Assembly (NCBI GenBank): GCA_002763895.1
Contig: NSLH01000014.1
Coordinates: 1-64,000 of the forward strand
Direction: 5' to 3'
Length of the DNA: 64,000 bases
Source: [Chlorobium] sp. 445
Lineage (GTDB): Bacteria > Bacteroidota > Chlorobiia > Chlorobiales > Thermochlorobacteraceae
The notes under the pieces are model-generated. The model saw only the letters and a list, made by a program, of their open reading frames with translations. It searched no databases and was not told where the DNA came from. Shown piece by piece: positions 8,233-49,338 of the stretch. Numbering within the stretch: the stretch's first letter is position 1; each line of letters starts with the position of its first letter. Both the position numbers and the translations under genes were made by a program.

Positions 8233-11034
8233 ATGCCTAACAAAGCGCCCAATGTCCGCCCCACTTTATTTTTGCTTGATGGCATGGCGCTGATCTATCG
8301 TGCTTACTACGCCCTGATGCCGATGCGCATGCAAACCACAGAGGGTTTTCCCACCGGTGCGGCTTTTGGTTTTACCAACACGCTCATCAAACTCATTGAG
8401 CATTATAGCCCCGATTACATCGCTGTCGCCTTCGATAGCAAAGAGAAAACTTTCCGACATGAGAAATATCCAGACTACAAAGCCAACCGCCCACTGCCGC
8501 CCGATGATCTGTTGATGCAACTCGAGAAAATTTATGCTATCGTTGAAGGCTATGGTGTGAAAAGTCTCAAAATGCCCAGCTTTGAAGCCGATGACATTAT
8601 GGGCACGCTTGCTAAAAAGTTTGAAGCAGAATGCGATGTTTTTCTTGTTACACCCGACAAAGATTTTGCGCAACTAGTCAGCGAGCATATTCAAATTCTA
8701 AAGCCAGCTAAAGACAATGATGTTTTCGAGCGATATGGACGCAAGGAGATCAAAGAGAAGTATGGAGTTTATCCTGAGCAGTTCGTTGATATGCTTACGC
8801 TCATGGGCGATTCTTCAGACAATATCCCGGGCGTGGATGGTGTTGGACCTAAAACTGCGGCGGCACTGATCAATGAATACGGTTCGCTTGATGCGCTCTA
8901 TAAAAATCTCTCGCTCATCAAAAAGCCTAAACTGCGCGACAACCTGCTCAAAGCACAAGCGCAGCTCAAACTTAGCCGCTTTTTAGTTACCATTAAAACC
9001 GATTTGGACATCAACGAACCCTTAGAAAATTTTAGACAACAGCCGCCCGCTACAGACCTGCTCATCCCAGTTTTGGAGGAATTAGAATTCAAACAATTTC
9101 TTTTGCGGCTCAAACGCACCACGAGCCTTGCTGCAACTGATGCCAATGCAGCAGAAACCACCCTCCTTGACGATGATCTTTCATTTGACTTTGGTGCAAA
9201 TGTGAGTCAAGACTACACTAGTCAACTTCCGACGCCACAATCCGTTGGCAATTATGAGCTTATCAATACACCTGAAACCTTTTCGGACTTGTTGCAAAAA
9301 TTGAGCCGTGTCCGAGAGTTTGCACTTGACACGGAAACTACCAATCTCGACGCACTTGATGCTGAACTGGTCTGCATCTCCTTTGCACTTGCAGCCCGCG
9401 AAGCTTATGCTTTGGATTTTCGTCATACGCTCTCACTTACAGAAGCGCTGCAACGCTTGAAGCCTGTTTTGGAAAATCCAACGGTTCGTAAAGTTGGGCA
9501 GAACCTCAAGTATGATTATCTGGTGCTGAAAAATTATGGGATTACGCTTGCGCCCCCTTACTTCGACACGATGCTTGCTAGCTATGTACTTAACCCCGAT
9601 GAGCCGCACAACTTAGACGATATGGTTGAGCAGTACTTGAAGTTTCGCACCGTAAAGTATGATGAACTTGTCGGTACAGGCAAAGCACAAAAATCAATTT
9701 ATGATGTGCCACTTGACGACCTCAAAAACTATGCATGCCAAGATGCTGATATGGCACTGCAACTCAAAGCCGCTTTGCAAGAAAGACTCTTACTTGAGCC
9801 TGCCTTGCAGTACATTTGTCTAAATATTGAATTTCCATTGCTGCGCACACTTGCCGAAATGGAATACTCAGGGATTGCTATCGACACCAGCGTACTTAGC
9901 GAGATTTCTCTTGCTTTAGACACTGCAATTCAAGAAACGGCACAAGCCATCTATGCGGCTGCTGGTGAGACATTCAACATTGATTCCCCAAAGCAAATTG
10001 GTGAAGTGCTCTTCGAGAAAATGAAACTGCCTGCCAAAAAACGCACGAAAACAGGCTACTCCACCGATGTGCGCGTGCTCGAAGAACTTGCAGCAGAATT
10101 TCCAATTGCCAGCAAAATTTTGGAATACCGAAGTTTGCAGAAGTTGAAAAATACTTATGTTAATACTTTGCCTACGCTCATTCGCAAAAGGAGCGGCAAG
10201 GTGCACACCTCGTTCAATCAAAGCGTGGTGGCAACAGGGCGGCTTTCATCGTCGAATCCAAACTTGCAAAATATCCCTATTCGCACCGAACTGGGCAGAC
10301 AAATTCGTAAAGCCTTTGTGGCAAGCCGCCCAGATTACGCTTTGCTTTCGGCAGACTACTCACAAATCGAACTGCGTATTGCTGCAGAACTCTCTGGGGA
10401 TGAAACTATGCAGCGCGCATTCAAAAATGGTGAGGATATTCACAGTGCAACTGCCAAAATTATTTTCGAGACGGATCATATCACGAAAGATATGCGCCGT
10501 AAAGCCAAGGAGGTTAATTTCGGTGTGCTTTATGGGATTCAGCCGTTTGGTTTGGCGCAACGCCTCGACATTAGCCAAAGCGAAGCTAAAGCCATCATCG
10601 AGAACTACAAAGCCAAATACCCAAAGATTTTTGACTATCTCTCGCGTGTCTTGGAGCAAGCACGCACAAAAGGCTATGTAGAAACGGCTTTAGGTCGGCG
10701 GCGCTATTTTAGGGATATCAACCACAAGAATGTCTCGATTCGAAACGCTGCGGAGCGTGCTGCTATCAATGCTCCGATTCAAGGCACCGCAGCTGATATG
10801 ATTAAACTGGCAATGATTCAAATTGATGAAAGTTTGCATGCAAAGAACATGCAGTCAAAAATGGTCTTACAAGTGCATGATGAATTGCTCTTCGATGCAC
10901 CGAAGTCGGAATTAGATGCCCTCTCTACGCTTGTCAAAACTGAAATGATAGATGCAGCAGTGCGCGCTGGACTACAGCGTGTGCCTGTTGCCGTAGAAGT
11001 TGGAATTGGTGAAAATTGGTTAGCTGCACATTGA
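8233..11034 (+). CDS. polA: DNA polymerase I
   Basis: 933-residue repair and Okazaki-fragment polymerase with all three domains. The N-terminal 5'-3' exonuclease/FEN domain shows FLLDGMALIYRAYYA, PSFEADDIMGTLA and GDSSDNIPGVDGVGPKTA. The central 3'-5' exonuclease keeps its acidic residues (FALDTETTNLDALDAELV, GQNLKYDYLVL, YACQDADMAL), so proofreading looks intact. The polymerase domain has ATGRLSSSNPNLQNIPI, motif A DYSQIELRI, the O-helix region RRKAKEVNFGVLYG and motif C QVHDELLFD. It lies in a tight operon with capA-like and rsgA. Confidence 0.97.
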   Translation: MPNKAPNVRPTLFLLDGMALIYRAYYALMPMRMQTTEGFPTGAAFGFTNTLIKLIEHYSPDYIAVAFDSKEKTFRHEKYPDYKANRPLPPDDLLMQLEKIYAIVEGYGVKSLKMPSFEADDIMGTLAKKFEAECDVFLVTPDKDFAQLVSEHIQILKPAKDNDVFERYGRKEIKEKYGVYPEQFVDMLTLMGDSSDNIPGVDGVGPKTAAALINEYGSLDALYKNLSLIKKPKLRDNLLKAQAQLKLSRFLVTIKTDLDINEPLENFRQQPPATDLLIPVLEELEFKQFLLRLKRTTSLAATDANAAETTLLDDDLSFDFGANVSQDYTSQLPTPQSVGNYELINTPETFSDLLQKLSRVREFALDTETTNLDALDAELVCISFALAAREAYALDFRHTLSLTEALQRLKPVLENPTVRKVGQNLKYDYLVLKNYGITLAPPYFDTMLASYVLNPDEPHNLDDMVEQYLKFRTVKYDELVGTGKAQKSIYDVPLDDLKNYACQDADMALQLKAALQERLLLEPALQYICLNIEFPLLRTLAEMEYSGIAIDTSVLSEISLALDTAIQETAQAIYAAAGETFNIDSPKQIGEVLFEKMKLPAKKRTKTGYSTDVRVLEELAAEFPIASKILEYRSLQKLKNTYVNTLPTLIRKRSGKVHTSFNQSVVATGRLSSSNPNLQNIPIRTELGRQIRKAFVASRPDYALLSADYSQIELRIAAELSGDETMQRAFKNGEDIHSATAKIIFETDHITKDMRRKAKEVNFGVLYGIQPFGLAQRLDISQSEAKAIIENYKAKYPKIFDYLSRVLEQARTKGYVETALGRRRYFRDINHKNVSIRNAAERAAINAPIQGTAADMIKLAMIQIDESLHAKNMQSKMVLQVHDELLFDAPKSELDALSTLVKTEMIDAAVRAGLQRVPVAVEVGIGENWLAAH

Positions 11035-48378: not shown

Positions 48379-48591
48379 TTAGTCACAGCAGCATGCCATG
48401 GGCGTGTCGCAGCAAGTGTTCGTTGTGCAGGCCACAGTGCAGCAGTCTGTGCACACCTCACATGTACATGCTGAACAGCAGCAAGCTGCAGAGGCACTGT
48501 TGTTATCCGCAGCCTTAACTTGTGGCAAAGCGCAAACACCAGCTACTGCAAATAGCGTGATTGCTACGAAAGAAAAAATTTTCTTACGCAT
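48379..48591 (-). CDS. Very cysteine-rich small exported protein
   Basis: 70 residues: a signal peptide (MRKKIFSFVAITLFAVAGVC, probable cleavage after QVKA-A) then a mature part of about 43 residues with 14 cysteines arranged as CCC, C-X2-C, C-X-C, CC and similar (ACCCSACTCEVCTDCC). The remainder is mostly Ala, Thr, Ser and Asn. Such density points to metal binding or multiple disulphides, like an exported metallothionein; that is inference. It is the last of three same-strand genes encoding Cys-rich envelope proteins. The exact family is unknown. Confidence 0.7.
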   Translation of the reverse strand: MRKKIFSFVAITLFAVAGVCALPQVKAADNNSASAACCCSACTCEVCTDCCTVACTTNTCCDTPMACCCD

Positions 48592-48604
48592 ATCCTTTTT
48601 ATCC

Positions 48605-48880
48605 TCAAAATTTTTGGTGTACGGTTGATTCTTTTTGTCCGATAAATTCCTTGCCGTCTGCGCTTAGGTTTGCAGCGTATCGTGCTGGCTCAGCGGCAAA
48701 TTTCTTGTCGCAGCCATTGCAGCAGAAGCCATAAGTTTTGCCCTCGTATTGGACGGTTCTTGCCCTCGGATTGACCTTTTCGCCCATCACAGGACAAACT
48801 TCATTGAATGGCTTTTCAGTGCTGCCTGATGAACATCCTACAAAACCCAGTAGCAGCAAGGAAAACAGAAGTGCTTTCAT
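48605..48880 (-). CDS. YHS/TRASH-like metal-binding lipoprotein
   Basis: 91 residues with a lipoprotein signal (MKALLFSLLLLGFVGC). The mature part has a YHS/TRASH-type arrangement: EVCPVMGEKVNPRARTVQYE, then YEGKTYGFCCNGCDKKFAAE and PARYAANL, with Cys residues suited to binding Cu, Zn or other soft metals. YHS domains are linked to heavy-metal sensing and transport, often copper. It is the middle member of the Cys-rich trio, 13 bases upstream of the smallest gene. Confidence 0.8.
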   Translation of the reverse strand: MKALLFSLLLLGFVGCSSGSTEKPFNEVCPVMGEKVNPRARTVQYEGKTYGFCCNGCDKKFAAEPARYAANLSADGKEFIGQKESTVHQKF

Positions 48881-48966
48881 GTCTCAGAAAGTTAAAACCC
48901 ATAATTGTGCACGCTCGGCACGAGCCATAGCGCGCGTTCAGAACAAGATTTGAACAGCGGTCGGTA

Positions 48967-49338
48967 TCAAATGAGCAGAATCTCGCAGCGCAGGTAAATT
49001 GGCGGTTGCGACGAGAATGACTTGCAGGGTTCTATGATGCGGTCTTGAAAACTGGAATCACTGATTAGCGGATAGGTCAGCAGTTCGGGGAAAAGCGCAA
49101 GTGCGCGCAAAAATTGGCATTTCCCTTCGGGCTGAAGCGCATCGTAAGGGGAGACTTCGCTTGCAGCAAGGTCGCACTGTTCGCAGCAGGGTGGCGCAGA
49201 GAAGGACATAGCACAGGCATTATCTTGTGCAGTACAGCACGGGCAGAGCGTATGCTCGCACTTTGTGAAGACCACACTCAGGTTACTGAACAGTAAAGTT
49301 GCTGTTAGCAAAAAGATGTAAAGCCGTCGAATCTGCAT
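48967..49338 (-). CDS. Cysteine-rich secreted protein of unknown function
   Basis: 123 residues with a signal-peptide-like N-terminus (MQIRRLYIFLLTATLLFSNL, cleavage near VFTKC). The mature part has 11 cysteines, clustered in CEHTLCPCCTAQDNAC and PPCCEQCDL, then a less Cys-rich C-terminus ending LRCEILLI. It is found first in the same-strand trio with the YHS lipoprotein and the 14-Cys protein. I do not recognise a family, but the arrangement resembles small envelope proteins near heavy-metal efflux genes. An inverted repeat lies 37-77 bases upstream. Confidence 0.65.
   Translation of the reverse strand: MQIRRLYIFLLTATLLFSNLSVVFTKCEHTLCPCCTAQDNACAMSFSAPPCCEQCDLAASEVSPYDALQPEGKCQFLRALALFPELLTYPLISDSSFQDRIIEPCKSFSSQPPIYLRCEILLI

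Follow-up and report, generated by a model that had tools for sequence, protein, structure and literature searches.

A conserved set of three small, putatively exported cysteine-rich proteins in Thermochlorobacteraceae and its probable link to envelope metal handling

Several described systems resemble the locus analysed here. The bacterial metallothioneins SmtA and MymT and the periplasmic copper storage protein Csp1 are small, cysteine-dense proteins almost devoid of aromatic residues; SmtA is not exported. Csp1 is exported (PMC7558416) and is a long four-helix protein. YHS/TRASH domains occur in various proteins including copper-transporting ATPases, and it is through its YHS domain that an adenylyl cyclase of Mycobacterium phlei is activated by copper, alone of the metals tried (PMC4626032). 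The HYC_CC_PP proteins (NF047658), of which our literature search found no mention in any paper, have a signal-like N-terminus, an HYC motif, cysteine pairs, a Pro-Pro motif and a hydrophobic C-terminus. Finally, in the copper/silver efflux operon cusCFBA a small envelope carrier, the periplasmic chaperone CusF, is encoded together with the CusCBA pump, and the mercury transport system MerT/MerP combines an HMA domain with a small membrane domain.

The window, that is, the whole stretch of 64,000 nucleotides analysed, lies on contig C14 of the genome G000, from a hot-spring relative of the green sulphur bacteria (Thermochlorobacteraceae, order Chlorobiales). Its minus strand carries, from 49338 down to 48379, three consecutive genes for cysteine-rich proteins with apparent export signals, and the ORFs are as given in the preliminary description of this DNA. 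In the order of transcription, they encode P3, a YHS lipoprotein and P1. P3 (48967..49338, minus strand; 123 aa) is HYC_CC_PP-like with a signal-like N-terminus, as judged from its ORF, its conserved columns and a phylum profile search; the YHS-domain lipoprotein (48605..48880, minus strand; 91 aa) was recognised by Pfam PF04945, its invariant cysteines and its predicted model; and P1 (48379..48591, minus strand; 70 aa), a putatively exported metallothionein-like protein, by its cysteine counts and its conservation at the trio. For P1 and P3, the signal peptides were assigned by visual inspection. Both of these proteins are probably disordered. The genes are separated by 86 bp (P3-YHS) and 13 bp (YHS-P1), and we infer that they form a single transcript. 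A consensus scan placed a weak candidate sigma-70-like promoter, agreeing at 9 of 12 positions, upstream of P3 (49383..49411, minus strand), to which we give low weight as sites of this type are rarer in the sequence than in shuffles. The scan also placed a 9-bp terminator-like hairpin 3' of P1 (48325..48346, minus strand), well positioned, in a region common to the convergent gene, although sites of this type are no more numerous there than the average of shuffles. No operator motif common to the regions upstream of P3 was seen in G000-G003.

The preliminary description had pointed to relatives as the place to look for the trio, and there it is indeed conserved. Among 61 relatives searched with the YHS protein, matches were confined to eight of the nine family genomes, and the order's 52 remaining genomes gave none; the sole family genome without a match, G008, is just 81% complete. 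P3, YHS and P1 occur together in seven of the nine family genomes (G000-G004, G006 and G007), and G005 has P3-YHS without P1, plus a second, lone YHS gene. The nearest named genomes with the set are Candidatus Thermochlorobacter aerophilum and Thermochlorobacteriaceae bacterium GBChlB. In the window, the trio is flanked by a divergent cinA on one side and by a convergent 230-aa gene without family on the other, with polynucleotide phosphorylase also among its neighbours; different neighbours are found in G001 and G003, and an M1 peptidase in one genus. Since the flanking genes vary between genera, the set keeps together while its surroundings change. In G001 and G003, a small protein of ~77 aa, apparently membrane-bound and without Pfam match, is encoded directly upstream of P3 (L027:10958-11191 and L029, within 8308-8835); in the window, no such protein was seen at this position.

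All three genes are under protein-level constraint, strongest on YHS, as pN between relatives is 0.16-0.30 versus a pS of 0.60-0.89 for YHS, 0.29-0.42 versus 0.56-0.87 for P1, and 0.40-0.56 versus 0.70-0.79 for P3; P1 keeps 10-13 of its 15-16 cysteine positions. The cysteine richness of the trio is not due to chance, because cysteine makes up ~1.1% of the window proteins against 41% of the P1 cysteine core, and because the same three genes recur in relatives. From the evidence set out below we infer metal binding, copper as the metal and its hand-over, and we consider it fairly probable that the trio acts as one unit for the capture and hand-over of copper, or of a soft metal with similar chemistry, in the envelope.

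P1 has 14 cysteines in its 43-aa mature part and P3 has 11 after its signal-like segment, in agreement with the counts reported previously for the two outer proteins. In the seven genomes, the P1 cores contain 35-42% cysteine, zero or one aromatic residue and zero or one histidine (absent in six of the seven), and P1 therefore has the composition by which metallothioneins are recognised, being small and cysteine-dense with aromatics and histidine largely absent. It had no Pfam match and no usable NCBIfam match, and matched no known metallothionein family in these databases. Because a profile built from the seven copies and run against 394 genomes of the phylum finds those copies alone, one per genome and each at the trio, P1 appears to be a new, family-restricted exported protein of metallothionein composition. 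It shares its size, cysteine density and scarcity of aromatics with SmtA, MymT and Csp1, and its apparent export with Csp1, from which it differs in not being a long four-helix protein. The earlier view of a metallothionein-like set can thus be maintained, on composition, for P1 alone of the three, and not for the HYC_CC_PP-like P3 or for the YHS protein with its known domain.

The envelope is usually oxidising and the number of cysteines in the P1 cores is even in all seven genomes, as would suit disulphide-rich envelope or surface proteins. That P1 and P3 are of this type, with metal not involved, seems to us very improbable, as the dense adjacent cysteines and few aromatics of P1 are ill-suited to a folded disulphide protein and genes of the P3 type are associated with metal transport. 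As part of a metal-handling unit, P1 would instead act as an exported metallothionein-like buffer, its thiolates buffering the metal.

The middle gene was previously taken for a YHS/TRASH-like lipoprotein, and its match to Pfam PF04945 (E 1.5e-11, 44.5 bits, gathering cut-off 30.3) and its lipobox (LLLGFVGC, lipobox Cys16) confirm this; in G002 and G003, the gene as called lacks the lipobox cysteine. Cys29, Cys53, Cys54 and Cys57 are invariant in the nine family sequences, presenting the TRASH-type cysteine spacing with Met or Ser as the second of the four usual ligands. Set against the YHS domains of P-type metal ATPases, the protein has Cys29 in place of the customary Asp, and Met or Ser in place of the next Cys. 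The predicted model is moderate (mean pLDDT 75 overall, about 90 across the domain), and its fold search retrieved the YHS domains of toluene/phenol monooxygenases and ribosomal proteins of the eL24 type; several of these have a high Foldseek probability, but in no case is E below 0.001. Whereas it shares its domain and cysteine spacing with the known YHS/TRASH proteins, including copper-transporting ATPases, the trio protein is a stand-alone lipoprotein. It is a probable single-site metal carrier, which would be tethered to the membrane and would bind the metal via Cys29, Cys53, Cys57 and perhaps Cys54.

The relatives of this YHS protein adjoin CusB, are fused to CusB, or adjoin P-type-ATPase-like genes. 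The proteobacterial ones are the N-terminal parts of long P-type-ATPase-like frames, and plasmids searched with the YHS protein gave a single match, which carries the annotation heavy-metal P-type ATPase. At two loci, CusB-like adaptors with a fused C-terminal YHS are followed by a separate YHS gene (L107:13-1308 and L108:235-1713). Genes for GDCCVxC-domain (seleno)proteins adjoin YHS genes in two distant genomes (L030:9217-9441 and L123:2556-2777), and this adjacency suggests that the GDCCVxC family is linked to metal handling.

Searches with P3 returned nothing usable in Pfam and NCBIfam. In particular, we do not file P3 as a member of HYC_CC_PP because the window protein has no match to the NCBIfam model (NF047658), and the best family copy (E 0.006, 17 bits) is below the cut-off of 28. 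Profile comparison of P3 with NF047658 gave a probability of 96% across the N-terminal half only, a match that may be helped by the signal segment. The conserved columns of P3 comprise the cysteine pairs C33-C34 and C50-C51, a Pro-Pro and a hydrophobic ILLI C-terminus ending in Ile. P3 shares with HYC_CC_PP the signal-like N-terminus, the CC pairs, the PP and the hydrophobic C-terminus, and differs from it by the absence of the HYC motif and by its linkage to YHS and P1. The P3 profile found relatives in other families of the phylum, and the tail is common to some of them (e.g. SPPPVYLSCKVFLI versus QPPIYLRCEILLI in the window). P3 may work like an HYC_CC_PP protein: it would be a cysteine-pair accessory of the sort that accompanies CusA pumps and some TonB receptors, acting beside a transporter.

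In several genomes outside the family, a P3-like gene immediately precedes OEP-CusB-CusA; in others, such genes are found close to Cu-ATPase or HMA genes. Among the best 30 HYC_CC_PP loci (L129-L158), the gene immediately 3' encodes a CusA-type pump in 19 and a TonB receptor in 8; of the rest, one has a TonB receptor after HMA-MauE, one HMA/CopA, and one none of these. At 28 of these 30 loci, HYC_CC_PP is thus followed by a CusA-type pump or by a TonB receptor of a particular type, in one case with HMA-MauE in between. The TonB-receptor linkage of P3 relatives counts against the main reading given above, as it would fit uptake too. Since P3-like genes head TonB-receptor operons as well, the main rival explanation is that the set supplies copper, collected via an outer-membrane TonB receptor, to the assembly of cuproproteins such as cytochrome c oxidase. 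In agreement with this, a TonB receptor is found 3' in 9 of the best 30 HYC_CC_PP loci, an Ignavibacteria genome carries genes for a P3-like protein, a double YHS protein and a TonB receptor side by side, and cytochrome oxidase subunit II is present in all eight family genomes with the set, where copper is therefore probably used. However, the set heads an efflux operon in G005, most HYC_CC_PP loci have CusA, and within the family the trio has no linked TonB receptor, so that we regard supply as unlikely.

Linked efflux or copper genes had also been proposed as a point to check, and in relatives the components of the trio are attached to HMA proteins, CusCBA, Cu-ATPases and TonB receptors. Within the family, the transport partner of the unit would be an HMA-DUF4396 or HMA-MauE protein or, in G005, a Cu/Ag-type CusABC pump. 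In G004, G006 and G007, which form one genus, an HMA-DUF4396 protein comes after the trio, from which a GDCCVxC protein separates it in G004. P1 and HMA-DUF4396 occur in exactly the same seven of the 12 genomes tested, but as these seven form one clade their co-occurrence gives support that is not independent. DUF4396, to which no function is assigned, has one passing mention in the literature searched, beside a heavy-metal gene cluster. These partners are like MerT/MerP in joining an HMA domain to a small membrane domain, and differ in that this domain is DUF4396 or MauE. A mercury operon was rejected, as no MerA was found over the cut-off in the eight family genomes.

In G005, P3-YHS heads an operon with HMA-MauE, a CusA-type pump, an outer-membrane factor (OEP, CusC) and CusB. 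The pump resembles E. coli CusA (E 1e-287) more than ZneA (E 4e-164) and has Met at all three triad positions, which we take to be M573, M623 and M672. The role of the Met triad in binding Cu(I) or Ag(I) has been reviewed (PMC7558416). As in cusCFBA, small envelope carriers are here encoded with a CusCBA pump; the carriers of the trio, however, use Cys, are unrelated to CusF, and have no linked pump in the window genome. Because of the Met triad of this CusA, the YHS relatives in P-type metal ATPases and the lack of MerA, copper or silver is, judged from the genes, the most likely metal of the trio. Of the binding of copper, zinc or mercury in the envelope once envisaged, the copper part is thereby favoured, and zinc and mercury are less so.

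Metallothioneins and TRASH domains also bind Zn and Cd. Cadmium in L24e is cited in a passage of PMC4626032, and in one family the P3-like genes adjoin arsenic-type genes, as read from sequence, in addition to CusCBA. That the element handled is not copper but a different soft or divalent metal (Zn, Cd, Hg, Ag), or arsenic, is nevertheless improbable in view of the Met triad in the linked G005 pump, the missing MerA and the fact that the ZneA-type pump of the window genome is not linked to the trio.

This ZneA-type protein, which in the alignment has Glu where the triad lies, is the best CusA relative in the window genome. Neither a CusA with the Met triad nor a heavy-metal P-type ATPase (CopA) over the cut-off was found there, absences that are provisional as the genome is 96.6% complete, and in the genus of the window the trio has no metal gene linked to it. 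The HMA search of the genome retrieved only HMA-DUF4396, located away from the trio (G000:C10, L068:8995-9807), and one small lipoprotein-like HMA protein. With HMA-DUF4396 unlinked and neither CusA nor CopA detected, the trio probably serves mainly for capture and sequestration in this genome. A tentative and rather doubtful extension would be that, in this genus, the trio and the unlinked HMA-DUF4396 constitute a pump-less copper defence of the envelope, with an extracytoplasmic metallothionein and DUF4396 as a copper membrane carrier.

Altogether, the trio is, as far as can be judged from its genes and their neighbours, a real and conserved metal-handling set of partly known kinds, in which YHS and P3 are accessories of known kinds and P1 is a new, family-specific member. 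Three poorly described small proteins are tied in this way to copper handling through gene linkage, and with P1 comes an exported metallothionein-like protein, of a type that has seldom been described from bacteria. The set also opens to testing the roles of HMA-DUF4396 and of the HYC_CC_PP-like proteins, which are common in Bacteroidota by metal pumps and TonB receptors.
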